From positions 1-35,766 of the forward strand of contig JAFGJV010000019.1 of the NCBI GenBank assembly GCA_016928955.1: 35,766 bases of DNA, written 5' to 3'. The translations under genes and the position numbers were made by a program. The notes below the pieces were generated by a model. That model worked only from the letters and a program-made list of their open reading frames with translations, was not told the DNA's origin and made no database searches. Below, one piece after another: positions 1-34,129 of the stretch. Positions within the stretch are counted from its first letter, which is position 1; every line of letters begins with the position of its first letter. Origin of the DNA: Spirochaetales bacterium (GTDB taxonomy: Bacteria > Spirochaetota > Spirochaetia > Treponematales > UBA12059).

Positions 1-12
1 CATGCGTCGCAT

Positions 13-52
13 GGGGCGGGCAGCTGGCCGCGTCCTGCGGCCACAACGCCCC
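13..52 (-). terminator. GC-rich hairpin after the glutamine synthetase stop
   Basis: A two-part stem lies 5 bases past the stop codon of the minus-strand glutamine synthetase gene. The inner stem pairs TGGCCGC (25-31) with GCGGCCA (37-43) around a 5-base loop. The outer stem pairs GGGGCG (13-18) with CGCCCC (47-52). No U tract follows on the minus strand. It could be a factor-assisted terminator or a 3'-end stabiliser. The pairing is visible; the role is inferred. Confidence 0.55.
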
Positions 53-3681: not shown

Positions 3682-3711
3682 TTGCCCCGGACGCCGCGCG
3701 CCGGGCAGAAT
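3682..3711 (+). promoter_or_regulatory. Candidate promoter for hrpB, near-leaderless
   Basis: TTGCCC (3682-3687), an 18-base spacer and CAGAAT (3706-3711), with the -10 box only 5 bases before the ATG at 3717. No Shine-Dalgarno sequence precedes that ATG. Each hexamer matches four of six consensus bases, so this is suggestive only. It fits the wider pattern of -10 boxes next to start codons seen in this window. Confidence 0.3.
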
Positions 3712-3716
3712 GGGAC

Positions 3717-6194
3717 ATGGCCGCACGCCCTTCCATACAGCCCTCGTCGCTCCCCATAGCGCCCCGCGTGGGCGACATAGCGCGGGCCCTGGAAGCCGGG
3801 CACCTGGTCCTGTCGGCCGAGACGGGCTCGGGCAAGACCACGTACCTGCCCGCAGCCCTGCTTGAGGCCATGGTCGGATCCGGAGCCATCCTGGTGCTGG
3901 AACCCAGGCGCCTGGCCGCGGTGTCGGCGGCCGTGCGCGCGTCCTGGCTTTTGGGTCAGAAGCCCGGCGACAGCGTGGGCTACCGGGTGCGCGGCGCTAC
4001 CACAGCCGGCCCGTCCACCCGCCTTTGGTACCTGACCTACGCGGTCTTCCTCCGCATGGTCCAGGACGATCCCTTCCTGGACGGCGTGCGCCTAGTGATC
4101 TTTGACGAATTCCACGAACGCTCGGCCGTGGGCGACCTCTGCCTGGCCTATGCCCTGGAGGCTGCCGGAGCCAGGGACGGCCTGTCAATCATGCTGACCT
4201 CCGCCACCCTGGCCGACCCGCGCCTGTCGCTGTGGCTGGGCGCGTCAACCATGGACGTACCGGGCAGGACCTACCCCGTGGACCTAGCCTACCTGCCGTC
4301 CAAGGACCGGCCGGTAGCGGCGGTGGCCGACGGCGTGGATCTGGCCCTGTCCAGGACCTCCGGCGACGTGCTCGCCTTCCTGCCCGGCGCCCGCGAGCTT
4401 GCCGAGTGCGCGTCGCTCGTGCGGGCCAGGCATACCGACGTGGACGCGCTCGTCCTGCACGGCTCGCTGCCGCTGGAAGCCCAGCGCCTGGTCATAGACC
4501 CGCCCCCGGCCGCACCCAGGCGCGTGGTGCTGGCCACCAGCGTGGCGGAGACCAGCGTCACCGTGCCGCGCGTCGGAGCCGTGGTGGACTCAGGCCTGTC
4601 CCGCCTGTCGCTATACGATGCCCGCCTGGGCATGAACCGCCTTTCTACCCTGCGTTCAAGCGACGCGGAAGCCGAGCAGAGGCGCGGCCGCGCCGGCCGC
4701 CTGGGACCGGGGCTGTGCGTTCGTTGCTGGGACCGGAGCGACAAGCTGGCGCCGGCCAGGGAACCAGAAATACTGCGGACCGAGTTAGCCGGCATAGCGC
4801 TCGAGTGCGCCGTGCGCGGGGCCGTCCGGCCCGCGGATACCCGCTGGCTGGACGCTCCGCCGCCTGCCGCCTGGGCCGCTGGCTTGGACCTGATACGGGA
4901 GCTTGGCTTTGTGGGCACGGACTGCGGGGCCACGGAGCGCGGACGCGCGGCTGCGGGCTTGGGCGCTGACCCCAGGGCCGCGGCAAGCGTGCTGTCCGCC
5001 GTGGAAGCCGACCCCGGGGGACCGGACGCCCACGCCGCCTGCCTCTTGGCAGCGCTGGGGACCGAACGCGACGCTGCCGATTTTGGCCAAAGCCAGGCGC
5101 TGGACGAGCGCGTGAGGTTTGCGCTTGACGGCGGGGGCGGTCAGCGCGGCGCGGCCATCCTGGCCGAGGCCAGGCGCCTGTACAGGCGGGCCACGGGCGG
5201 CCAGTGGTCGGAAGCGGCAGCGCGTGCGGCGGCATCGGAACCGGGCAGGCTCCTGGCGCCAGGCTACCCCGACCGCTTGGCCCGCCCCAGGCCGGATGGC
5301 TTCTGGGAATTCCGCTCGGGCAGGCAGGCCCGCCCCGGACCAGGCCTCCCCGTGTCTGGATGGGTGGTGGCCGTGGACGTGGACGCGGGTGACAGGCAGG
5401 GCCGCATCCACCGCGCGGCTCCCGTGGACGACGCCGTCGCCCTGGCGGTGCTGTCCAAATCGGCGGTCCAGGAAACCGTGACCGAGTGGAAGGGACTGGA
5501 AGCGCGCAGGGTCAGGCGCTCGCGGTCCGGCGTCTTTACGCTGGCCGAAACCCGGCTGCCGCGGCCGTCCGGTGGCGACCTGGCGCGCGCCGTGGCAGAC
5601 AGGCTGGCCGCGGAGGGCGTGGACTGGCTGCCGTGGTGCGGCCAGGCCGAAGCCATGTTGACCAGGATACGGTACGCGTCCAGGCATGGCGCCTTTGAGG
5701 CACCCGCCTGGCTAGACGACGCTCGGGCCCTGGCCACCGTGCTGGCCGAGTCGCTTCCGCCCTGGCTGTCGGATTCGGGACCGGCGCTGGACAGCCAGGG
5801 CCTTGCCCAGGCCGTGCGCTATGCCCTGGACCTGGACCAGCCCTGCCTCATGGCCACGCTGGACCGGGTAGCGCCGGCCACCCTGGTGACCCCTGGCGGC
5901 CGCAGACGAACCATACCCTATCCGGAGGAGGGCGACGCCAGGCTATCCCTGCGCATCCAGGAAGTGTTTGGCATGGAAAGCTCGCCTCTGGTGTGCGGCC
6001 GGCCCCTGGTGCTGGAGCTGTTGTCGCCCGCGGACAGGCCGGTACAGGCAACCAGCGACCTGGCCGGCTTCTGGCGGAACACCTATCCCCGGCTCAGGCA
6101 GGAACTGTCCAGGCGCTATCCCAAGCACCACTGGCCGGACGATCCCCTGGCCGCGGTCCCGGGCAAGGGGCTGAAGCCCAAGATGTCGCCCTGA
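3717..6194 (+). CDS. hrpB: ATP-dependent helicase HrpB
   Basis: An 825-residue DExH-box helicase of the HrpB family, close to the usual ~820. Motifs in order are Walker A ETGSGKTT (about 34-41), EPRR (motif Ia), DEFHERS (motif II, about 130), TSATL (motif III), ATSVAETSVTVP (motif V region) and QRRGRAGR (motif VI). The C-terminal HrpB-specific domain shows YPEEGDARLSLRIQEVFG, SPADRPVQATSDLAGFW and RRYPKHHWPDDP. These separate it from its paralog HrpA. The family is broadly linked to RNA metabolism, with no firm cellular role. The start is taken at 3717, because the open frame upstream to 3426 lies in the antisense of the divergent gene. An ATG at 3660 is possible but would overlap the divergent promoter region. 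It converges on the SpoIIE gene with 3 bases between stops. Confidence 0.93.
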   Translation: MAARPSIQPSSLPIAPRVGDIARALEAGHLVLSAETGSGKTTYLPAALLEAMVGSGAILVLEPRRLAAVSAAVRASWLLGQKPGDSVGYRVRGATTAGPSTRLWYLTYAVFLRMVQDDPFLDGVRLVIFDEFHERSAVGDLCLAYALEAAGARDGLSIMLTSATLADPRLSLWLGASTMDVPGRTYPVDLAYLPSKDRPVAAVADGVDLALSRTSGDVLAFLPGARELAECASLVRARHTDVDALVLHGSLPLEAQRLVIDPPPAAPRRVVLATSVAETSVTVPRVGAVVDSGLSRLSLYDARLGMNRLSTLRSSDAEAEQRRGRAGRLGPGLCVRCWDRSDKLAPAREPEILRTELAGIALECAVRGAVRPADTRWLDAPPPAAWAAGLDLIRELGFVGTDCGATERGRAAAGLGADPRAAASVLSAVEADPGGPDAHAACLLAALGTERDAADFGQSQALDERVRFALDGGGGQRGAAILAEARRLYRRATGGQWSEAAARAAASEPGRLLAPGYPDRLARPRPDGFWEFRSGRQARPGPGLPVSGWVVAVDVDAGDRQGRIHRAAPVDDAVALAVLSKSAVQETVTEWKGLEARRVRRSRSGVFTLAETRLPRPSGGDLARAVADRLAAEGVDWLPWCGQAEAMLTRIRYASRHGAFEAPAWLDDARALATVLAESLPPWLSDSGPALDSQGLAQAVRYALDLDQPCLMATLDRVAPATLVTPGGRRRTIPYPEEGDARLSLRIQEVFGMESSPLVCGRPLVLELLSPADRPVQATSDLAGFWRNTYPRLRQELSRRYPKHHWPDDPLAAVPGKGLKPKMSP

Positions 6195-6197
6195 CGC

Positions 6198-8357
6198 TCA
6201 CACCTTGCGTATGACCACGGCGGTAAGATCGTCCGTGCGCCGCGCGCCCGCGGTAAAGTTGCGGTAGTCGATCATGATGGACGCCAGGATGGATTCGGCG
6301 TTTTCGTCGTCGGCCCTGCCCAAGGCTTCCATGAGCCGCTCCTCGCCGTATTCCACGCCGCGCGCGTTGCGACCCTCAGTCAGGCAGTCGGTGTACAGAA
6401 GGAGGGCGTCCCCCGGCAACATGGAAAAGGCCAAAGCCTTGACGTTTACCTCTAGGCCCTCGCGCCCGAGGGGCGGCGCCTTGAAATCCTGGCCGTCCTT
6501 GGACGTGAGCGCCTGCACCTTGCCCGATCCCGCCTTGCGGAACAGGACGTCCGTGTGGGCAGCGTTGACGTACTCGACGCGGTCACCGGCCATGCGGAGA
6601 TACGCGCAGGTCAGGTAGTTGTCCACGCTGGACAGCTCGCGCACCAGCTCCCGGTTGGCCTCGGCCAGGAGGGCGCCGAGCGCTTCCTTTGACCTGGACG
6701 ACACGCGCCGGAAAAAGACGTTGCGGGCAAGCAAGGTGATCAGGCCGCTGGCTATGCCGTGCCCCGACACGTCGCCCACCATCACGCCGCGGAGCTCGCC
6801 GTCCCTCTCGTAGAAATCGTAAAAGTCCCCGGACACTCCGGCCGCCGGCTCGAACACAAAGCTCAGGTCCCAGCCTTTGACCGCGGGTGCCTTGGCCGGG
6901 AAAAAACCTCTCTGCACGGACACCGCTATGCTCATGTCCCGCTTGGCCGCGTCCATGGCCGTCCGCAGGTTCCTGTTGGCGCCGGCTATGTCCACGTTCA
7001 GGCGGGAACGGTCCTCCGCGCTCTTGGCCAGGGCCGCGGTGCGCTCCTGGACGGTCCGCTCGAGTCCCGCGGTCAGCAGCTCCAGATTGGCGTAGGTTGA
7101 GGTGAACTGGCTGGCAAGGACAAAGGCCGCGCCTAGGAGAAACAGGAAAAACGCGTATTTGGACAGGCTGAGCGTGGAGCCCGCGTTGTTGAGGAACACG
7201 TCCCCTAGTACGGCCGCCGCCATGACCGCGGAACCGACCAGCATCTTGCCCACGTCCGAACGCAGGGCAAAATCCCGCGCCCAGCGCGCGGCGCGCACAA
7301 AACGGTTGGGCCCGGTCACCCGCACGGCCAAAGCCCGCACGTCGCGTATCAGGGCGCGGGGCAGTATGAACACCAGGAGGTAGAGCACGGCCGCTATGGC
7401 CAGCACGTACCATACGTCAAGCACGTGGTGCCGGTGGACAAACTGGCCGGCCACGCCGACCGCAACGAACACGGCCGACAGTATCTTGCCGCCCAGGGAT
7501 AGCTTGCCGTTGAGCACGGTCTCCAGGAAGGCCACGAACATGGGAATCATCAGGAAGAGTACCAGGTATTCCACGTGCACCACGATGTCCGTGTTGATGA
7601 TCAGGTCGGTGATGGCCCTGGTCCTTGAGGTCAGGTAGATGGACAGAAGCAGGGCCGCGCCTCCGAAGTACAGATAGCCCCGCGATTCCCGGTGCAGCAC
7701 GTACAACAGGAGGTGATAGAGCGCGAAGAACATGTATATGCCTATCAGCATGAGGTCGATGGTCTCGCGGCTTCTGGCCGACAGGGTGCGGTACGAGTCG
7801 ATCATGTAGGGGCCCGGCAGTTTCATGCCCGTGCGGGTGTCGCCCGGGTCGCCGTTGATATGGAAGGCCAGGATGTTTTTGCCCCTGTTGATGAGGCGCT
7901 TGTCCAGCGGAATGATGACGCCGCGCAGGGACCGCTGCATGAACGGGCCCGCCGGATCGCCGCGCAGTTCGTTCCGTATGAGCGTGCCGTTCAGGTACAG
8001 GGCCCAGGCCTCGCCCACATGGGCGATGTACAGGCCGGGGTCCGTCAGGTTGAGCAGCCGGAGGTCGGCCTCAAAGGGAATCAGTATGGTGAAATCCTTT
8101 GACGGCATGGGAAACAGGCTCTTGACGGCGTCTTTGGGCATGCCCGGCACGTTCAGCTCGGGTAGGACCAGGGTCCGCTTGCCCCGCTCCGGCTGGACCA
8201 CGAGCCACGCTGAATCGCCCAAGAGCGGCAGGTTGCGTATCCAGGTTGTCTTGAATCCAGAACGCACGTATATCTCGGATTGGGTGAGGTCGACAATTTG
8301 GGCGCCGGCCGCGGCGGATAGCAGGGCCAGAAACAACGCAAGCACACGTTTCCGCAT
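6198..8357 (-). CDS. 7TM-DISM receptor with SpoIIE/PP2C phosphatase output
   Basis: A 719-residue membrane sensor. A signal peptide (MRKRVLALFLALLSAAAGA, cut about residue 19) is followed by a ~170-residue extracytoplasmic beta-rich domain, seven transmembrane helices (about 200-430) of the 7TMR-DISM type, a coiled linker (LERTVQERTAALAKSAEDR), and a C-terminal PP2C-type phosphatase (about 475-719). Phosphatase motifs are intact: SGDFYDF, GDVSGHGIASG, LYTDCLTEGR and DDLTAVVIRK. Such proteins usually dephosphorylate anti-sigma-factor antagonists, but no STAS or anti-sigma kinase gene is in the window, so the partner is encoded elsewhere. There is no clear Shine-Dalgarno sequence; a -10-like box ends 6 bases before the ATG, suggesting a leaderless mRNA. 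Confidence 0.92.
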   Translation of the reverse strand: MRKRVLALFLALLSAAAGAQIVDLTQSEIYVRSGFKTTWIRNLPLLGDSAWLVVQPERGKRTLVLPELNVPGMPKDAVKSLFPMPSKDFTILIPFEADLRLLNLTDPGLYIAHVGEAWALYLNGTLIRNELRGDPAGPFMQRSLRGVIIPLDKRLINRGKNILAFHINGDPGDTRTGMKLPGPYMIDSYRTLSARSRETIDLMLIGIYMFFALYHLLLYVLHRESRGYLYFGGAALLLSIYLTSRTRAITDLIINTDIVVHVEYLVLFLMIPMFVAFLETVLNGKLSLGGKILSAVFVAVGVAGQFVHRHHVLDVWYVLAIAAVLYLLVFILPRALIRDVRALAVRVTGPNRFVRAARWARDFALRSDVGKMLVGSAVMAAAVLGDVFLNNAGSTLSLSKYAFFLFLLGAAFVLASQFTSTYANLELLTAGLERTVQERTAALAKSAEDRSRLNVDIAGANRNLRTAMDAAKRDMSIAVSVQRGFFPAKAPAVKGWDLSFVFEPAAGVSGDFYDFYERDGELRGVMVGDVSGHGIASGLITLLARNVFFRRVSSRSKEALGALLAEANRELVRELSSVDNYLTCAYLRMAGDRVEYVNAAHTDVLFRKAGSGKVQALTSKDGQDFKAPPLGREGLEVNVKALAFSMLPGDALLLYTDCLTEGRNARGVEYGEERLMEALGRADDENAESILASIMIDYRNFTAGARRTDDLTAVVIRKV

Positions 8358-8363
8358 ACCCCC

Positions 8364-8392
8364 ATCCTACGCCCACGCGCACGGGCGGTCAA
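8364..8392 (-). promoter_or_regulatory. Sigma-70-type promoter for the SpoIIE receptor gene, leaderless
   Basis: On the minus strand, TTGACC (8392-8387, five of six consensus bases) is followed by a spacer of exactly 17 bases and TAGGAT (8369-8364, four of six). The bases GGGGGT then lead straight into the ATG at 8357. With the usual 6-7 bases from -10 box to start point, transcription would begin at or next to the A of the start codon. Confidence 0.55.
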
Positions 8393-14248: not shown

Positions 14249-15466
14249 GTGAGCGAGCATTTTGGCGGACAGGACGACAAGAGCGCGCGGCTGAGGGTCA
14301 TCGTGGAAAAACTGGCCGCAGGGGTTCCGGCGTCGGAGGTCAAGCGCGAGTTCCACGAGTTGATCAAAGGCGCGGACGCGGCCGAGGTTGCCGCCATGGA
14401 ACAGGCCATGATAGAAACCGGCACCCCGGTTGAGGAAGTGCAGCGCCTGTGCGAGGTGCACGCGGACCTGTTCCGCGCCGGGCTTGAGCGCGGCGAAAAA
14501 GCCGACCGCATGCCGGGCCACCCGGTCCACACCTACCGCGCCGAAAACCAGGAGGCCAGGAAGCGCCTGCGCCCGCTCAGGCTTGCTGCGCTCGCGGGAG
14601 GCTTGGATGCCCTGACCAGGGCCGCCGACAGCCTGCGCCCCATCATCGTCCACTACCAGCGCAAGGAAAACCAGCTCTTCCCCTTCCTGGAGCGCACGGG
14701 CTTTACGGGCCCCTCAAAGGTGATGTGGGGCAAGCACGACGAGATCCGGGAAGCGTTCCGGGAGCTTGACGCGGCCATCCAGTCAAGAAGCGCTGGGCTT
14801 GCCCGCAAAACCGCCCGCGCCCTGGCCCGCAAGATAGCCATGATGATATTCATGGAAGAGAAAATCCTCCTGCCCAACGCCTTGAAGCGCCTGTCCGACG
14901 CCGACTGGGCGGCGGTCAGGCGCGGAGAGGACGCGATTGGCTTTGCCTGGGTCAAGCCGGGCGCCCAGTACGACCCGGCCCTGGTCAACCAAGGCGGCAT
15001 GTACGCCAATTTCCAAGCGGCCGCGGACAGCGCGTCGTCGCAAGCCGGCCAGGACCAGGCGGCGGGCATACGCCTGTCCGAGGGGAGCCTGCCCCCGGAC
15101 ATCCTGGACCTCATGCTGAGGCACCTGCCCCTGGACGTGTCCTTTGTGGACGCGGACGACAAGGTCCGCTACTACTCCGATTCCCCGCACAGGGTGTTCC
15201 CCAGGAGCCCGGCCATCATAGGCCGCGACGTGCGCAACTGCCATCCGCACAAGAGCGTGGCCGTGGTCGAGCGCATTCTGGAAGCGTTCAAACGCAAGGA
15301 AAAGGACACCGCGGATTTCTGGCTGGAGGTGGGCGGGCGCTTTGTGTACATCACCTACAAGCCGCTGTACGCGGCGGACGGTTCCTACCTGGGCACCATG
15401 GAAGTCAGCATGGACGCCACCGAACTGCGCGGGCTGACCGGAACGCGCACCCTGCTGGATTGGTAA
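14249..15466 (+). CDS. DUF438-hemerythrin-PAS sensor protein
   Basis: A 405-residue cytoplasmic protein with three parts. A DUF438 helical domain (about 1-80) has AGVPASEVKREFHELI. A hemerythrin-like four-helix bundle (about 85-240) carries probable di-iron ligands in GHPVHTYRAEN, IIVHYQRKENQLFPFLE, WGKHDEIRE and FMEEKILLP. A C-terminal PAS domain (about 300-395) has FPRSPAIIGRDVRNCHPHKS and FWLEVGGRF. The combination suggests sensing of oxygen, nitric oxide or redox state; it has no enzymatic output domain, so it must signal by contact. The GTG at 14249 is set by a full AAGGAGG (14236-14242) six bases upstream; the open frame from 14183 has no such site. The close position behind mtfA suggests co-transcription. 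Confidence 0.9.
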   Translation: MSEHFGGQDDKSARLRVIVEKLAAGVPASEVKREFHELIKGADAAEVAAMEQAMIETGTPVEEVQRLCEVHADLFRAGLERGEKADRMPGHPVHTYRAENQEARKRLRPLRLAALAGGLDALTRAADSLRPIIVHYQRKENQLFPFLERTGFTGPSKVMWGKHDEIREAFRELDAAIQSRSAGLARKTARALARKIAMMIFMEEKILLPNALKRLSDADWAAVRRGEDAIGFAWVKPGAQYDPALVNQGGMYANFQAAADSASSQAGQDQAAGIRLSEGSLPPDILDLMLRHLPLDVSFVDADDKVRYYSDSPHRVFPRSPAIIGRDVRNCHPHKSVAVVERILEAFKRKEKDTADFWLEVGGRFVYITYKPLYAADGSYLGTMEVSMDATELRGLTGTRTLLDW

Positions 15467-15488
15467 ACTGGCGCGTTTTGGTTACACT
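15460..15488 (+). promoter_or_regulatory. Leaderless promoter for the Pr6Pr-type gene
   Basis: TTGGTA (15460-15465), a spacer of exactly 17 bases and TACACT (15483-15488) are followed by GGCGGA and then the ATG at 15495. The -35 box overlaps the last codons of the upstream gene. Both boxes match four of six consensus bases. Predicted transcription begins at the start codon. Confidence 0.45.
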
Positions 15489-15494
15489 GGCGGA

Positions 15495-16184
15495 ATGATG
15501 AACAAAGCTTCAGCCTTCCGCCTGCCGGCGTCCCTGCTGATTGCGGCCATGGCGGCCGGGGGCATCGTCATCCAGATGACCCTGCCCATAGCCGGGCGCT
15601 CGGCTTTTGGCATGTGGCGCTACTTTACCGTCCAGAGCAACGCCCTGGTCGCGCTTGCCGCCGCCCTTGATGCCCTGGCGCTTGTCCGCGGCCGCCGGCC
15701 GGGAACCCGCCTGGCCCTGTTCCGAGGCCTTGCCCTGTTCGCCATCACGGTGACCAGCACGATGTTCGCCCTGTTCCTGTCCAGGCTGTGGAACCCCCCG
15801 GGCATGGCAGGGCTGGCCAATTCGCTTCTGCACGCGTGGACGCCGCTGGCCTTCTGGGCGTACTGGCTGGTCTTTGGCGAGCGAGGCCTGCTCAAGCCCA
15901 CGGCTCCAGCGCTGTGGCTCGGCTACCCGCTTGCGTACCTTGCGGGCTCCCTGCTTGTGGGGAGCGTGTCCGGGTTTTATCCCTATTGGTTCATCAACCC
16001 GGCTCCCCCGCCCGACGGCTTGGGTTCCTACGGACACGTGGCGCTTTTCTCGTTGGGCTCGGCCGCCGCCTTCCTGGTCCTTGGGTACGCGCTTTGGGGC
16101 GTGGACAGGTTTCTGGCAGCCGCGGCCGTTCGCTTGGTCGCTAGAAAACCGGAGAACGATCCGCGGGATACCAGCTCGCCATAA
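15495..16184 (+). CDS. Pr6Pr-type six-helix membrane protein
   Basis: A 229-residue integral membrane protein with six predicted helices. Motifs of the Pr6Pr family (FAR-17a/AIG1-like group) are visible: GMWRYFTVQSNALV near residue 40, LHAWTPLAFWAYWLVFG near 110, and GYPLAYLAGSLLVGSVSGFYPYWF near 140-165. Members are uncharacterised in bacteria; eukaryotic relatives hydrolyse fatty-acid esters of hydroxy fatty acids, using Thr/His residues in the membrane. The start Met-Met pair makes 15495 or 15498 possible. No Shine-Dalgarno sequence is present, and a -10-like box ends 6 bases before the ATG. It converges on the histidine kinase gene. Confidence 0.78.
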   Translation: MMNKASAFRLPASLLIAAMAAGGIVIQMTLPIAGRSAFGMWRYFTVQSNALVALAAALDALALVRGRRPGTRLALFRGLALFAITVTSTMFALFLSRLWNPPGMAGLANSLLHAWTPLAFWAYWLVFGERGLLKPTAPALWLGYPLAYLAGSLLVGSVSGFYPYWFINPAPPPDGLGSYGHVALFSLGSAAAFLVLGYALWGVDRFLAAAAVRLVARKPENDPRDTSSP

Positions 16185-20984: not shown

Positions 20985-21470
20985 TCACGCGCTGTACGCC
21001 TTGCCCCGCAGGGAGTCGATGTCCAGCCTGAGTATGGTAACCGCGTCGTAGGACGCGTCGTTCTTGATGTTGCGCTCCAGTATCGGCTGCGGATCCTTCT
21101 CAAGGTGCCCAAGCAGGGTCAGGAGGGCGTGCTTCTTCTCGGCCAGGTCCGTGACCACGGCCATCCGGCCGCGTATGACCAGGGACGCGTAGTCATGGTC
21201 GCACTTGCCATCCAGATACCCGCGGTCCTGGATGACGGTAGCGCATACCCGGTCGTTGGCCCTGATGAAGTCGAGCTTGTCGCCGTGATTGGAGCTGTGA
21301 AAATACACGTTCCCGCTATCCCGGTCGTAGCCATAGCTCAGCGTCACGATGTACGGCTCGTCGACCCTGGCCAGGGCCAGGGTCATGTATTTCCCGGCTT
21401 TGAGGATGCCGGTCAGCTGTTCCTGGTCCAGGATTTCCTTGTCCCGCCTGCGGGGATGGTACGACGCCAT
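20985..21470 (-). CDS. Pyridoxamine 5'-phosphate oxidase-like flavin-binding protein (Nim type)
   Basis: A 161-residue split-barrel protein. The N-terminal RRRDKEILDQEQL and GKYMTLALARVDEPYIVTLSYGYD, then VYFHSSNHGDKLDFIRANDRV, match the FMN-binding family that includes 5-nitroimidazole resistance (Nim) proteins. Members bind flavin and may reduce small molecules; resistance cannot be claimed from sequence. The ATG at 21470 is preferred, with GGAGGA upstream on the minus strand. The longer start at 21515 passes through a TATACT box at 21507-21502 that may be its promoter. A hairpin directly follows its stop. Confidence 0.85.
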   Translation of the reverse strand: MASYHPRRRDKEILDQEQLTGILKAGKYMTLALARVDEPYIVTLSYGYDRDSGNVYFHSSNHGDKLDFIRANDRVCATVIQDRGYLDGKCDHDYASLVIRGRMAVVTDLAEKKHALLTLLGHLEKDPQPILERNIKNDASYDAVTILRLDIDSLRGKAYSA

Positions 21471-24200: not shown

Positions 24201-24537
24201 GGGGGACCTCCGAGTCGACGGGACGGCGCCGCCAGAGCGGCAGACGGGTCCCGTGGTCGATCGAGACTCCGTCCTCGGGCTTTTGTCCCGTGGGTGTCGC
24301 GGCTGTCACGCGGCCGCCGGCGCCGCTCGGTCTCGGCCACCGGCAGCGTCTTCACGCTGGCCGGGCGGAACCCTAGGCGCCCTCTCGAAGGTAGATGCAC
24401 TGTTTGTAGCTGACCCTCGCTCGGCGGTCAAGTGGATGTACCGTTACTGCGAGGAGCATCGCACGCGCCCGCCGGGCCGGGAATGGTTCACGCCCGGCAT
24501 CTTGCGCGTTGGGCGTACCGAGTCTATCCTTATAGCC
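24201..24537. other. 337-base divergent intergenic region
   Basis: It separates the ABC ATPase gene (minus) from the CHASE-GGDEF gene (plus). It is GC-rich and full of short self-complementary runs such as ACGGGTCCCGT. The frames through it give low-complexity Arg/Ala/Pro sequence. I see no tRNA and no match to the c-di-GMP riboswitch cores I know. Its only supported content is the promoter at 24502-24530. Confidence 0.5.
24502..24530 (+). promoter_or_regulatory. Leaderless promoter for the diguanylate cyclase gene
   Basis: TTGCGC (24502-24507), exactly 17 bases, then TATCCT (24525-24530). Seven bases later is GTG (24538), in frame with the cyclase. This supports the GTG as the start and a leaderless transcript. 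Confidence 0.4.
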
Positions 24538-25917
24538 GTGGTAACCTTACCAGGCGAGCTGGACAGCGACGTCATCCCCTACAGGCGCCCCGCCGTTATC
24601 TTTGGCGTGTTGACCACCTGCCTGCTCTATGTCCTGTCCGCGACCGCTGCCCATTTCTGGATGGCCCACCTGGGCGACATGGAGCGCGTCGAGGTGTCCC
24701 AGGAAGCGTCGCGCCTCCGCGCCCGCCTTGAGAACGTGCTCAACGAAAAGCTGTCCATGGAACGTGGCCTGGTGGCGTACATAGAAACCAACCCGGACAT
24801 GACCACCGACGAATTCAACGCCTATACCTCCGCCCTGATCATGGACGACCCCGTAATACGCAACATATCGGTGATCAAGGGCACGGTCATAGGCTTTGCG
24901 TTTCCGTACCAGGGGAACGAAGCTGCCATAGGCAAGGACCTTTCCCTCATACCCGAACAGGCGCCCACCCTCAGGCTGGCCATGGAAACCAGAAAGCCCA
25001 TCCTCTCCGGCCCCCTGGACCTGGTCCAGGGCGGGCGCGGCATCATCACGCGCATGGGCATCTTTCCCATCGGCGAACTGGGCCCTGAATACTGGGGCCA
25101 GGCCAGCGTGGTTCTGAACGAGGACGAGGTATACCGCCAGGCGGGTTTTTATGACGCCACGGCCATACGGCTGGCCATCCGCAAAGTAGACGAACGCGGC
25201 GTTGACGGGCCAGTGTTCCTGGGAGATGAGTCCGTCTTCCTGGACGAGCATATTGCCCTTGACGTGGTGGTGCCGGGCGGCTCGTGGCGAATGGCGGCCG
25301 TGCCGGCCGAGGGATGGCCGCGCTACACGGTCTATGTCGTGGCCAGCGTGGTCATCCTCCTGGGCCTGTCCACCGCGTTGGGAGTCGTCATTTACCTGCT
25401 GGTGTCCGCGCGCGGGCGGCTGGCCATCATGGCCTACCGCGACCAGCTGACGGGCATGCCAAACCGCCTCCTGTTCTGGGACCGCCTGTCGGTAACGCTG
25501 CCCCAGGCCGAGCGCGACGGCCGTCGCGTGGCCCTGCTCATGCTGGACATGGACGGCTTTAAGGAAGTGAACGACACCCTTGGACACGCCGCCGGGGACG
25601 CGGTGCTGGTGGAGGCTGCCGCCCGCCTGAGCGCGGCCTTCCGGCGCGGCGACACGGTGGCCCGGCTGGGAGGCGACGAGTTCGCGGTGATAGCCCCGTT
25701 GTGCGGCGACGCGGGGGCGCGTATCGTGGCCGCAAAGGCCGAGTCCTGCTTCACGGAGGCCTTCAGAGCGGCCGGAAGCATCAAGCTGTCCGCCAGCGTC
25801 GGCATGGCTGTCTTCCCGGACGACACCCACGACCCTGAGGAGCTCCTGGCCATGGCCGACCGGGCCATGTACAAGGTCAAGATAAAACCGGCTAGCGCTT
25901 CCAGAACGAACGGGTAA
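24538..25917 (+). CDS. CHASE-domain diguanylate cyclase (GGDEF)
   Basis: A 459-residue membrane enzyme that makes cyclic di-GMP from GTP. Helix 1 (about 18-36) is followed by an extracytoplasmic CHASE domain (about 45-265) with MDDPVIRNISVIKG, LSLIPEQAPTLRLAMETRKP and RGIITRMGIFP. Helix 2 (about 268-290) precedes the GGDEF domain. The active site RLGGDEF is intact, and the inhibitory I-site RxxD is present as RRGD five residues before it, so product feedback is expected. There is no EAL domain. The GTG at 24538 is favoured by a promoter-like sequence 7 bases upstream; the first in-frame ATG is at 24436 without a ribosome site and would add 34 unusual residues. The 3' end overlaps the convergent trkH gene by 26 bases. 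Confidence 0.88.
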   Translation: MVTLPGELDSDVIPYRRPAVIFGVLTTCLLYVLSATAAHFWMAHLGDMERVEVSQEASRLRARLENVLNEKLSMERGLVAYIETNPDMTTDEFNAYTSALIMDDPVIRNISVIKGTVIGFAFPYQGNEAAIGKDLSLIPEQAPTLRLAMETRKPILSGPLDLVQGGRGIITRMGIFPIGELGPEYWGQASVVLNEDEVYRQAGFYDATAIRLAIRKVDERGVDGPVFLGDESVFLDEHIALDVVVPGGSWRMAAVPAEGWPRYTVYVVASVVILLGLSTALGVVIYLLVSARGRLAIMAYRDQLTGMPNRLLFWDRLSVTLPQAERDGRRVALLMLDMDGFKEVNDTLGHAAGDAVLVEAAARLSAAFRRGDTVARLGGDEFAVIAPLCGDAGARIVAAKAESCFTEAFRAAGSIKLSASVGMAVFPDDTHDPEELLAMADRAMYKVKIKPASASRTNG

Positions 25918-27349
25918 AGAGCACCAGCACCGTGTATATCTCCAGGCGCCCCAGGAGCATCACAAAGGACAGCCAGGCCGTCACGTAATCGGGAAAAAAG
26001 TCGTAGTTGAACACCGGTCCCACCAGGGCAAAGCCCGGGCCTATGTTGCCCAGCGTGGCAAGGGTGGCGGTGATGCTCGTCTGTATGTCGTAACCGCCCG
26101 ACGCAACCACCAGGGTGCTCACGATAATGGCGGCCGCGTACAGGAAAACCATGGCCGCTATGTCGTATACCACGTTTTTCTTAAGGTAGTGGCCGTCCAC
26201 ATACACGCCGTATATGCCCCGTGGGTTGAGCAGGTAGCGCATTTCGGACAGGCCCATCTTGAACAGGGTGACGATGCGGCCCACCTTGATTCCGCCGCCT
26301 GTGGACCCCGCGCAGCCTCCAATGAACATGAGAGCGAACAGGATGGCCTGGGACAGGGCCGGCCAGGCTAGGTAGTCCGCGGTGACAAACCCGGTGGTGG
26401 TCAGGATGGACGACGTCTGGAACGCCGAATAGCGCAGGGCCTGCCCAAAGCCCTGGTAGGCGCCTCCGCGCATCAGATCCAGGGCCATCACGCCGCTGGA
26501 CGCCACGAATATCAGGATATAGGTGACAAATTCGCTGTTCTTGAACACGGCCTTGAAGTCCCCGCGGAGCATGCGCCAGTGGAGGGAAAAATTCATGCCG
26601 GCCAGGACCATGAACACGGTGACAACCCAGTCAACGTAACCCGAGCCAAAGGCGCCCACGGACTGGTTCCGCGTGGAAAAACCGCCGGTGGCCATGGTCG
26701 CGAACGAGTGGGTTACCGCGTCCAGGAGGTCCAGGCCACCCAGCATGAGCAGGGCCGTCTCAAGCACTGTCAGTCCTAGATAGATGAGCCACAGAATCTT
26801 GGCGGTTTCTGAGATGCGCGGGGTGAATTTGTCCACCTGGGGACCGGGCGCCTCGGCTTCCATGAGGGCCCTGCCGCCCATGCCCAGGAGGGGAAACACG
26901 GCCACCGTCAGCACGACGATGCCCATGCCGCCCAGCCAGTGCGTGGTAGCGCGCCACAGGAGTATGGAGTCGGGAAGGCTCTCTATGTCGGATAGCACGG
27001 TCGCGCCCGTGGTGGTCAGTCCGGATATGGTCTCGAACAGGGCGTCCACAAAGGACGGGATGGAACCCGACAGCACAAACGGCAAGGCGCCAAGCACTCC
27101 TGACAGGGTCCAGCCCAGGGTGACAAAAAGGTACCCGGTTTTGGTGGACAAGGCAGGCTTATCGCGCTTGCGGCCCGTGGCCAGGACCAGTACCAGAAAA
27201 CAGAGGCCGGCCGCCACGGGCAGGGCAAAGGCATGTACGGCTGCCGCCCCCTCTCCGAGCGCCAGACCCACCGCCATGCAGGCCGCCATGAAGCCCGACA
27301 CGATGGACAAAAGCAGGGCCAGGGCCCTGGCGAGCGGCCTAGGCTCCAC
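25892..27349 (-). CDS. trkH: Trk potassium uptake protein TrkH
   Basis: A 485-residue membrane subunit of the Trk potassium uptake system. Four pore loops with selectivity-filter glycines are visible: SGLTTTGATV, TMATGGFST, SSILTTTGFV and TLGNIGPGF. GCAGSTGGGIKVGR precedes the intramembrane loop region, as in TrkH/KtrB proteins. The GTG at 27349 is chosen because GGAGGG lies just upstream; the reading frame can also open at a TTG (27373). Its start overlaps the end of trkA by 11 bases, implying translational coupling and one operon. Its tail overlaps the convergent cyclase gene. Confidence 0.93.
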   Translation of the reverse strand: MEPRPLARALALLLSIVSGFMAACMAVGLALGEGAAAVHAFALPVAAGLCFLVLVLATGRKRDKPALSTKTGYLFVTLGWTLSGVLGALPFVLSGSIPSFVDALFETISGLTTTGATVLSDIESLPDSILLWRATTHWLGGMGIVVLTVAVFPLLGMGGRALMEAEAPGPQVDKFTPRISETAKILWLIYLGLTVLETALLMLGGLDLLDAVTHSFATMATGGFSTRNQSVGAFGSGYVDWVVTVFMVLAGMNFSLHWRMLRGDFKAVFKNSEFVTYILIFVASSGVMALDLMRGGAYQGFGQALRYSAFQTSSILTTTGFVTADYLAWPALSQAILFALMFIGGCAGSTGGGIKVGRIVTLFKMGLSEMRYLLNPRGIYGVYVDGHYLKKNVVYDIAAMVFLYAAAIIVSTLVVASGGYDIQTSITATLATLGNIGPGFALVGPVFNYDFFPDYVTAWLSFVMLLGRLEIYTVLVLFTRSFWKR

Positions 27350-28748
27350 CCCGCCCTCCAAAGATCCTCTCAAGGGCGCCTATGCCGCTTTTGCGTACCA
27401 CAAAGGCAACGGTGTCGCCGCTGTCTATGACCGTGCGGCCGCTCGGTACCGTCAGCTCCCCGGATTTTAGCATAAAGGCCACCAGGGAGCCCTTGGGCAA
27501 GGACAGGTCCATGAGCTTTTTGCCGGCCGCTGGCGACGAGTCCTCCACGGCCAGCTCCACGATTTCCACGTCGTCCTCGAAAAAGTCATGGATGGTGCGT
27601 ATGTGGGCGCGGCGGATCAGCTCCAGCGCAAAGGCGGCAACCACGTTTTTTATGTTCACCACGGCGTCGAGCTCAAGGACGCCGCCCAGGGGGGCGTAGC
27701 GGTCATTGATGGTAATGGCAATGCCCTTGGCCGCGCCCAGCGACTTGGCCAGACGGGCGGTCAGCATGTTGTAGGTCTGGGATTCCGTGGCGCACACCAC
27801 CAGATCTGCCCTGTCAGCCCCGGCCTGTTCCAGCACCCCGAATTCCGAGCTGTCGCCGTTGACCACCTCGATGCCCTGGAAAACCCTGGACAGGCGCTTG
27901 CCCGCCTCCCGGGATGAATCCAGCACGGTGATGGACCTTCTGGACCTGAACAAGCCCTTGAGGATGCGGCCCAGGCCCCGGGCCCGCTCAAGCTCCCGCT
28001 CCTGGAGCCTCTGCACCAGATGCTCGGTTACGCGGGTGGCGCCCACGATAAGCACCTTGCGGGTAGCCTGACGCACGGCTGCCACAGGACCAGACACGCC
28101 GTCCAGGTCCTCGGGCGTGCCCAGGATGTCGAGCATGTCGTCACTGGCCACGCGGTAGTCGCCGGACGGCACGGAAAGCGTTCCGTTCTTGACCACGGCC
28201 GCCACCAGGAACTCCCTGCCTGACTGGCCGCGGAGCTCCTGCAAGGTCCGGCCGGAAAAGCCGGGCACCGCGCCCGCGTCCAGGTAGCGCAGTTGCAGCT
28301 GTCCGTCATGCAGGGGAACCACGTCCTCGGCAAAGCCGGCGTCCACGATGCGGGCCACGGCCTCCGCTGTGGCCATGGCCGGATTCACGATAACATCCAG
28401 GCCAAAGGCCCGCCTTTGCGCCTCTGACAGGGTCGAGTAAAAGGGATTCGCAACGCGGGCCACGGTCCGGACAGACTTGTTTTCCGCGGCCACCAGCCCG
28501 CAGGCCACAATGTTCACCTCATCTGAGCCCGTCAGCGCAAGGAACCACTCGGCGTCGGCTATCTTGGCCTTGCGGAGCACTTCCGGGCGGGAACCGTCGT
28601 CATGCATGACCAGGCAGTCCAGCTCGTTGGAGGCCACCCGGGCCGTTTCCGTGTCCTTTTCGATCAGGACAACATCGCGCCGCTCTTCTATCAGCTCCCT
28701 GGCAATGTGAATGCCAAGCATGCCGGCACCCACGATGATCACTCGCAT
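27339..28748 (-). CDS. trkA: Trk system regulatory subunit TrkA
   Basis: A 469-residue cytoplasmic protein with the duplicated layout RCK_N-RCK_C-RCK_N-RCK_C. It binds NAD(H)/nucleotides and gates TrkH. The first Rossmann motif is VIIVGAGMLGIHIA, with acidic strand-2 end LIEKD. The second is VLIVGATRVTEHLV, where the usual glycine triad is lost, so only the first half may bind dinucleotide in the canonical way. The C-terminal sub-domains show PSGDYRVASDDMLDILG and PSGRTVIDSGDTVAFVV. There is no Shine-Dalgarno sequence; TATAGT ends 6 bases before the ATG. It is first gene of the trkAH operon. Confidence 0.93.
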   Translation of the reverse strand: MRVIIVGAGMLGIHIARELIEERRDVVLIEKDTETARVASNELDCLVMHDDGSRPEVLRKAKIADAEWFLALTGSDEVNIVACGLVAAENKSVRTVARVANPFYSTLSEAQRRAFGLDVIVNPAMATAEAVARIVDAGFAEDVVPLHDGQLQLRYLDAGAVPGFSGRTLQELRGQSGREFLVAAVVKNGTLSVPSGDYRVASDDMLDILGTPEDLDGVSGPVAAVRQATRKVLIVGATRVTEHLVQRLQERELERARGLGRILKGLFRSRRSITVLDSSREAGKRLSRVFQGIEVVNGDSSEFGVLEQAGADRADLVVCATESQTYNMLTARLAKSLGAAKGIAITINDRYAPLGGVLELDAVVNIKNVVAAFALELIRRAHIRTIHDFFEDDVEIVELAVEDSSPAAGKKLMDLSLPKGSLVAFMLKSGELTVPSGRTVIDSGDTVAFVVRKSGIGALERIFGGRGGA

Positions 28749-28754
28749 CCCGCC

Positions 28755-28760
28755 ACTATA
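28755..28760 (-). promoter_or_regulatory. -10 box of trkAH, leaderless position
   Basis: TATAGT on the minus strand, followed by GGCGGG and the trkA ATG. No good -35 hexamer lies at the usual distance. It is listed because position and spacing match the boxes before the SpoIIE, Pr6Pr and cyclase genes. Confidence 0.35.
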
Positions 28761-31993: not shown

Positions 31994-33865
31994 TCAACCT
32001 TCCTCCACGATGGCCGCCAGTTCCTCCCAGCGGGCCGTGCGCGCGTCTATGAGCGGCCCGAGCTCGGCGTAGCGCCGCGAGGCAGACTCAAGCTCGGGAC
32101 CCGACGAGCCGCTTGAGAACAAGCTCTCAAGGTCGGCCTTCTCCGCCTCCAGGGCGGCTATCTCGTCCAGAATGCCGTCGTATTCCCTGCGCTCCGCCCA
32201 GCTGGCCCGGCGCGCCCGGTTGGAACCGCGGCCGTCGTCTGCCCGTGCCGCCGCCGCGGGCGCATCCCGGGCGCCGGCGGCGCGTTCGTCGGCATAGACC
32301 TTGTAGTCGCCATAGCATCCGGGAAAGAGGCTCGCGCCTCCCGAGCCGTCAAAGACCAGCGTCATATCCGTGACCCCGTCCAGGAAGGCGCGGTCGTGCG
32401 ACACGGCCACCACGCAGCCCTCAAAGCCGTCTATGTAGTCTTCCAGAAGCTCAATGGTGTCTATGTCCAGGTCGTTGGTCGGCTCGTCCAGGACCAGCAC
32501 GTTGGGATGGCCGGCCAGCGTGGCCACCAGCTGGAGGCGCCTAAGCTCGCCGCCTGAAAGGGTGGACAGCCTCTGCTCGTGCATGTCGCGGTCGAAGAGG
32601 AAGCGCTCAAGGAGGCGCTCGGCGTCAAGCTCGGAGCCGTCGCCCATACGCGTGAGCTCAGCGTGCCTGCGGATATATTCGATGACGCGCGCGTCCATGG
32701 GAAGCCCGTCAGCCGTCTGCGCGTAATGGGCGCACACCGTGGACGCGCCCCGGTCCACCGCGCCGCCGTCCGGCTCCAGGGCGCCAGATATGATGGACAG
32801 GAGCGTCGTCTTGCCAGACCCGTTCGGGCCGACCACGCCAAGGCGGTCGCCCTTGCCGAACTCGTAGCTGAACGGCGACAGCACCGTGCGGCCGCCATAC
32901 GCCTTGGTCACGCCCTTGAGCTCCAGGATCTTCTTGCCGAGCCGGCGCGCCCGAGACGAGAACGCGCCCATGGCGTCAGGCCTCTCAAGCGCCTGGGCCT
33001 CAAGCTTCCGGATATCGTCCTTGCGGCGCTCGCTCTTGCCAGCGCGGGCCCTGGCGCCACGGTTCAGCCATTTGAGCTCTATCTTGAGGATGGCCCTGCG
33101 CCGCGAGTCAGCCTTCTCCAGGGACGCCCAGCGTTCCTGCCTGGCCCGGATGAAGGCGTCGTAGTTGCCCGGATAGGAGAACACTTCCCGCCGGTCTATC
33201 TCCATGATCCGTCCGCAGGTTGCCTCCAGAAAGGCGCGGTCATGGGTCACGAGCACGAACGCGAAACCGCCCTGGGCCAGCTTGCGCTCCAGGAGCTCGA
33301 TGGCTTCCAGGTCAAGGTGGTTGGTCGGCTCGTCCAGGATGGCAAGCTCGGGACGCTCGGCCAGGCAGCGCGCTATGGCCGCGCGCTTGATCATGCCGCC
33401 CGAGAAGCCGTCCATGGACGCGTCCTGGTCGGCCAGACCGAACTCCGAGCACAAGGACGCGTAACGCCGCTCCAGGAGAAAGCCGCCCTCGGCCTCCATG
33501 CGCGCCGCAAGCCTGTCCAGCTCCGCCTGTCCCGCCGCGCGCGAACCGTGCACGGCCGCGTGGTAGGCGCGCGCCAGGGCCGCCCCCGGCGATGCCCCTT
33601 CCAAAAGGAAGTCAGCCAGCGTGGAGCCAGGCCTGGCCGTTGGCCGCTGTGGCAGAACCGATACCCTGAGCCCGCGCTTTCTGGCCACGGTACCCGAGTC
33701 GGGCTCAAGCTCTCCCGAGAGCACCCTGAGCAGGGTGGACTTGCCCACGCCGTTCCGCCCCACAAGGCCGACACGCTCGCCCTCCTCAAGCCCAAAGGAC
33801 ACGTTTTCAAACAGAGGAGAGCCTATGAGGGTGACGGACACGCCGTCCAGTGAAAGAATGTTCAT
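31994..33865 (-). CDS. ABC-F family ATPase (Uup-like)
   Basis: A 623-residue soluble protein with two ABC domains and no membrane part. First domain: GRNGVGKSTLL, FSGGMIKRAAIAR, ILDEPTNHLD. Second domain: GPNGSGKTTLLS, LSGGELRRLQL, VLDEPTNDLDID. Between them lies the P-site tRNA interaction motif region (about 230-310) with ARARAGKSERRKDD. The C-terminal coiled coil (about 545-620; LDEIAALEAEKADLESLF, ARTARWEELAAIVEEG) is of the Uup type. ABC-F proteins act on ribosomes with stalled peptides, and Uup also affects DNA transposon excision. The ATG at 33865 has no clear Shine-Dalgarno sequence; TATAGT lies 10 bases upstream without a good -35 box. It leads the slyX gene in one operon. Confidence 0.92.
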   Translation of the reverse strand: MNILSLDGVSVTLIGSPLFENVSFGLEEGERVGLVGRNGVGKSTLLRVLSGELEPDSGTVARKRGLRVSVLPQRPTARPGSTLADFLLEGASPGAALARAYHAAVHGSRAAGQAELDRLAARMEAEGGFLLERRYASLCSEFGLADQDASMDGFSGGMIKRAAIARCLAERPELAILDEPTNHLDLEAIELLERKLAQGGFAFVLVTHDRAFLEATCGRIMEIDRREVFSYPGNYDAFIRARQERWASLEKADSRRRAILKIELKWLNRGARARAGKSERRKDDIRKLEAQALERPDAMGAFSSRARRLGKKILELKGVTKAYGGRTVLSPFSYEFGKGDRLGVVGPNGSGKTTLLSIISGALEPDGGAVDRGASTVCAHYAQTADGLPMDARVIEYIRRHAELTRMGDGSELDAERLLERFLFDRDMHEQRLSTLSGGELRRLQLVATLAGHPNVLVLDEPTNDLDIDTIELLEDYIDGFEGCVVAVSHDRAFLDGVTDMTLVFDGSGGASLFPGCYGDYKVYADERAAGARDAPAAAARADDGRGSNRARRASWAERREYDGILDEIAALEAEKADLESLFSSGSSGPELESASRRYAELGPLIDARTARWEELAAIVEEG

Positions 33866-34039
33866 GCGTGGGCCCACTATACCCGGAAGGGACCAGCGGC
33901 GGCTACCGGGGAGGCACGGAGGATCGCGCTTCTCTTGCTGTCTTTGGGCGCCTCGCGCGGCGCTTATGTGCCCAGTGGATTTCCTGGATCACACAGCTTC
34001 CAAGGTTCCATCCTGGCGCGACCGGGCTCTCGGCTTTAT

Positions 34040-34062
34040 CTTTCCGCGCTAAGCGCGGAAAG
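34040..34062. repeat. Near-perfect palindrome in a 264-base intergenic region
   Basis: CTTTCCGCGCT (34040-34050), one central A, AGCGCGGAAAG (34052-34062). TATC to the left and GATA to the right extend the pairing past a one-base bulge. A second palindrome, GGCCAGCTGGCC, lies about 30 bases to the right. Between the ABC-F gene and the AT-rich tail no ORF is supported, so this 264-base gap is best described as a candidate dispersed palindromic element. Repetition elsewhere cannot be tested here. Confidence 0.45.
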
Positions 34063-34129
34063 GATACCGCCTCGATCCCTGGCGCTTGTTGGCCAGCTGG
34101 CCCATTCTCTTGTAGCCCCGGTCCAAACG

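Follow-up and report, generated by a model that had tools for sequence, protein, structure and literature searches.

Sigma70-type promoters next to start codons predict leaderless or near-leaderless mRNAs in a spirochaete genome

The window analyzed here, a stretch of 35,766 nucleotides, is contig C30 of a 59-contig, 2.87 Mb Spirochaetales genome (99.5% complete) and has a G+C content of 64%. A 16S rRNA gene was searched for in the assembly and not found; the closest named relatives of the window's trkA are Spirochaetota metagenome-assembled genomes, including HGW-Spirochaetae-7, with 63–65% protein identity. The window carries genes for an HrpB helicase, a 7TMR-DISM/SpoIIE-phosphatase receptor, a Pr6Pr-type protein, a CHASE-GGDEF diguanylate cyclase, TrkA and an ABC-F type ATPase (Table 1). 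For the first five of these genes, the initial annotation had described a –10-like hexamer close to the start codon and no Shine-Dalgarno site. All five motifs read as written, the hrpB box being weaker, as had been conceded, since CAGAAT is not a TANNNT match. Gene calls also confirm that four of the five genes head a divergent pair and that the Pr6Pr-type gene does not. The ABC-F gene was not on that list and is a possible further candidate for a near-leaderless or very-short-leader mRNA. The pyridoxamine-oxidase-like gene (20985–21470, minus strand) has an ordinary layout, in which a GGAGG site is present and TATACT lies roughly 30 bases upstream, and offers a contrast to the candidate leaderless genes. 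About 1.8 kb of the window lack confidently called genes, and this part contains a minus-strand match to the Rfam family RF01705 (Flavo-1 RNA) at 34016–34088. The match is full-length, shows no marked broken pairs and scores 44.4 bits, where the gathering score is 42 (E 1.6e-6).

Table 1. Genes and candidate promoters in the window, with minus-strand elements given in reading direction.
Feature	Position	Strand	Elements	Basis
hrpB candidate promoter	3682–3719	+	TTGCCC, 18 bp, CAGAAT 3706–3711, 5 bp, ATG 3717–3719	Orthologues
hrpB helicase gene	3717–6194	+		Pfam HrpB_C, DEAD, Helicase_C
7TMR-DISM/SpoIIE-phosphatase receptor gene	6198–8357	-		Pfam PF07695, PF07228
spoIIE-receptor candidate promoter	8355–8392	-	TTGACC 8392–8387, 17 bp, TAGGAT 8369–8364, GGGGGT, ATG 8357–8355	Exact genome-wide pattern hit (C30:8355-8392:-)
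Pr6Pr-type candidate promoter	15460–15497	+	TTGGTA, 17 bp, TACACT 15483–15488, GGCGGA, ATG 15495–15497	Reads as described
Diguanylate cyclase candidate promoter	24502–24540	+	TTGCGC, 17 bp, TATCCT 24525–24530, 7 bp, GTG 24538–24540	Orthologues
CHASE-GGDEF diguanylate cyclase gene	24538–25917	+	Start GTG 24538	Pfam PF03924, PF00990; start from orthologues
trkA gene	27339–28748	-		Pfam TrkA_N, TrkA_C
trkA candidate –10 box	28746–28760	-	TATAGT 28760–28755, GGCGGG, ATG 28748–28746	Orthologue retention
ABC-F type ATPase gene, possible box	33863–33881	-	TATAGT 33881–33876, 10 bp, ATG 33865–33863	Gene call and upstream scan

We assessed the layout in a blind sample of this genome totalling 344 kb, in which contigs C1–C20 are each represented by their first 20 kb (or less) and which was picked independently of the motif. 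Gene calling relied solely on coding statistics, with Shine-Dalgarno and promoter signals left out, and gave 159 transcription-unit-first and 108 operon-internal genes (267 in all). A second batch of stretches was computed and left out of the estimates, as it had been picked partly around pattern hits and is therefore biased.

Our data demonstrate that the layout occurs beyond chance in this genome. TANNNT lies 5–10 bases before the start in 22 of the 159 transcription-unit-first genes of the blind sample, against a mean of 7.1 and a maximum of 13 in 300 dinucleotide shuffles and against 9.0 expected from other distances. The commonest distance between box and start is 6 bases, and at exactly this distance 7 boxes were found among the 159 genes versus 1.2 after shuffling. 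Operon-internal genes of the sample show no enrichment (TANNNT in 3/108, 2.5 expected), which counts against a gene-calling artefact as well as against stop-codon effects. Of the 22 box-carrying genes, 12 have a TTG at –35 with a spacer of 17 or 18 bases, whereas all other spacers from 8 to 31 together account for 1 of the 22. The box and the Shine-Dalgarno site are nearly exclusive, the latter being present in 1/22 genes with a box versus 70/137 genes without one (Fisher p = 1.6e-5); Shine-Dalgarno sites in the same genome form a sharp GGAG/GGAGG peak a few bases before starts. Together with the orthologues described below, this position-specific enrichment, –35 spacing and near-exclusion support the earlier proposal that two initiation modes coexist. 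The layout is not special to divergent pairs, being carried by 10 of 72 divergent genes and by 12 of 87 same-strand genes with a gap of more than 30 bases in the sample. A pyrimidine at –1 is more frequent ahead of starts at distances of 6 or 7 (p = 0.016), a weak signal given that it is common before starts generally. The excess over expectation amounts to 13–15 of the 267 genes of the blind sample, or about 5%.

Whole-genome counts for ATG starts, controlled by spacings of equal codon phase (N15 for N6 and N16 for N7), agree with the blind sample. TANNNT-N6-ATG occurs 414 times versus 322 for N15 (an excess of 92) and TANNNT-N7-ATG 501 times versus 448 for N16 (an excess of 53, small taken alone), giving a combined excess of about 145. 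A reversed-pattern control for TANNNT-N7-ATG was rejected as misleading owing to codon periodicity. Genome G001 of the phylum search has 2128 TANNNT-N7-ATG occurrences versus 1580 for N16, and there the reversed-pattern control, at 2191, is about as high. Under same-phase spacing controls, many spirochaete genomes show an excess, while in others it is slight or absent. Two further genomes of that search have larger TANNNT-N6-ATG excesses than the window's genome, 1734 versus 1402 (G138) and 2040 versus 1670 (G147), and on these counts other spirochaete families may make greater use of leaderless genes. The longer pattern TTGACN{17,18}TANNNTN{5,8}ATG was also counted across the phylum against its reversed pattern; no ranking of families is drawn from it, since that control is poor in AT-rich genomes.

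At the level of single genes, the layout is retained ahead of trkA. We compared 28 trkA orthologues, most of them members of the same family and order; TANNNT lies 5–10 bases before the homologous start in 22, compared with a shuffle mean of 4.3 and a maximum of 11; the box stands at 6 or 7 bases in 16 of them, 7 being the commonest distance. The homologues align from residue 1 and keep a start codon there, and the count involved essentially no choice among starts. Mean pairwise identity over the 40 bases upstream of trkA is 0.28 among the orthologues, indicating that the rest of the upstream region is saturated. A few orthologues carry a Shine-Dalgarno-like sequence in place of the box.

Not every candidate behaves in this way. 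The Pr6Pr-type gene has a candidate promoter that overlaps the end of the preceding gene, and although the motif described for it is there in the window, the layout is not kept in the relatives compared, most of which have Shine-Dalgarno sites at this position, so that this example depends on the window alone. Such a case illustrates the reading in which the boxes arise by chance, as TANNNT matches in upstream regions that are richer in AT. TANNNT is degenerate and chance alone should yield about 7–9 of the 22 sites in the blind sample, which leaves single genes that lack orthologue support uncertain, the Pr6Pr-type gene among them. Chance matches, however, would not produce a peak at one short distance or a sharp –35 spacing, would not be absent from operon-internal genes, and would not persist in diverged orthologues. 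We regard this explanation as extremely improbable and, for the set as a whole, refuted; for the Pr6Pr-type gene a chance match is possible.

The orthologues of hrpB and of the cyclase bear on the position of the start codons. In the cyclase orthologues, the start is the equivalent of 24538 or close to it, and TANNNT lies 5–10 bases ahead in 8 of 9, versus 1.3 after shuffling. For hrpB, where the box is mostly CANNNT, TTG-(16..18)-[TC]ANNNT-(5..8)-start is matched by 10 of 14 sequences, the window's own among them, versus 0.05 on average and at most 1 after shuffling. Both counts lean upward, several orthologues having more than one possible start and the start having been chosen with the layout in view. 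The orthologues speak against the starts given by the gene caller, 24436 for the cyclase and 3660 for hrpB, and favor those of the initial annotation. These two disagreements could be taken to mean that the start codons are wrong and that the true starts lie downstream, on mRNAs with ordinary leaders; the caller's alternatives, though, were both upstream. Against such misplacement stand the backing of the hrpB and cyclase starts by orthologues, the alignment of trkA homologues from residue 1, with a start codon kept there, and the fact that the starts of the spoIIE receptor and Pr6Pr-type genes are the first in their frames. Misplaced starts are thus a very unlikely source of the layout.

In sigma70-type promoters, a –10 box ending 6–7 bp before the start codon directs transcription to begin at that codon's first base or beside it, and leaderless mRNAs in other bacteria are translated by 70S ribosomes with initiator tRNA. 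From the position of the promoters we infer where transcription starts, that a leader is absent and how the ribosome binds, and we consider it very probable that sigma70-type promoters give leaderless or near-leaderless mRNAs in this genome, beside Shine-Dalgarno initiation in other genes. A –10 box ending about 6–7 bp before the start codon would set transcription to begin at the first base of that codon or within a few bases of it, for which a leaderless or near-leaderless mRNA is the most likely product. Translation would then proceed from the 5′ end, presumably by 70S ribosomes and initiator tRNA as elsewhere, and the other transcription-unit-first genes as well as the operon-internal genes would rely on Shine-Dalgarno sites. 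Against this model, trkA has no TTG at –35 distance in the window, and the orthologues of the spoIIE receptor gene often have their start at 10–11 bases. TTGACC-17-TAGNNT is seen ahead of several of these orthologues with the start 6 or 10–11 bases further on, and the larger distance predicts that a few leader bases remain. The same prediction applies to the half of the blind-sample sites (11/22) in which TANNNT lies 8–10 bases before the start.

These larger distances, including that of TAGGAT at 10–11 bases in spoIIE orthologues, also favor a related possibility, namely that the promoters yield very short leaders (1–5 nt) and that translation needs a few upstream bases or starts by another route free of Shine-Dalgarno pairing. 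The commonest distances, 6 in the genome sample and 7 in the trkA orthologues, fit a start on the first codon instead, and we hold very short leaders in place of none to be rather unlikely. The practical difference from leaderless mRNA is small in any case, because a leader that short has no room for a Shine-Dalgarno site.

The leaderless layout is already known, also in the phylum Spirochaetota, and its share of genes here is within the reported range. The initial annotation knew of no description for this lineage; the phylum has two precedents, one predicted (PMC3160421) and one from differential RNA-seq (PMC5243855). The TANNNT signal was found in about 206 of 953 bacterial genomes, and leaderless genes were predicted in 6 of 18 spirochaete genomes at a mean of 3.9% and a range of 1.8–6.9% of genes, which includes our estimate of about 5% (Zheng et al., 2011, PMC3160421). 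Those genomes had been sequenced by 2010, and the metagenome-derived lineage of the window is therefore probably not among them; our analysis differs in also showing conservation at single genes. The table of Zheng et al. (2011, PMC3160421) gives an average leaderless share of 39% for Deinococcus-Thermus and 19% for Actinobacteria, and in Deinococcus the layout was put to experimental test in 2025 (PMC12340547). The genome studied here has in common with those groups TANNNT a few bases before the start, Shine-Dalgarno-led genes alongside (PMC3160421; PMC12340547; PMC3898074) and the restriction of leaderless genes to promoter-proximal positions, but the layout is much rarer here and a –35 TTG at 17–18 bp is common. 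Leptospira interrogans belongs to the same phylum, in a different part of it, and has about 440 mRNAs with leaders shorter than 10 nt: according to differential RNA-seq, transcription begins no more than 10 bp from the start codon in 430–450 genes and exactly on it in 184 genes at 30°C and 170 at 37°C (PMC5243855). The ends were mapped in that study, which reported no general promoter motif apart from sigma54 (PMC5243855), whereas the –35/–10 promoter is here read from sequence alone. In the literature searched, no paper on the layout in Treponema or Borrelia was found, which is not proof of absence.

A possibly new element is that single genes, trkA above all, retain the layout across a family. 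The layout is kept in 22/28 trkA orthologues despite saturated upstream DNA, versus about 5% of genes genome-wide, and this contrast prompts a more tentative reading, possible though on balance not the expected one, that trkA, hrpB and the GGDEF cyclase gene have conserved their leaderlessness under selection across this spirochaete family and in part the order, and do not owe it to promoter drift alone. If so, conserved leaderlessness could serve gene-specific control, for example through 70S initiation favored under stress. Our analysis extends leaderless expression, as it can be read from sequence, to uncultured spirochaetes. The layout can also improve start-codon calls, having given better starts for two genes than a caller that uses coding information only. 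Finally, the retention of the layout at trkA across the family makes it possible to ask whether the mode of initiation is itself under selection.
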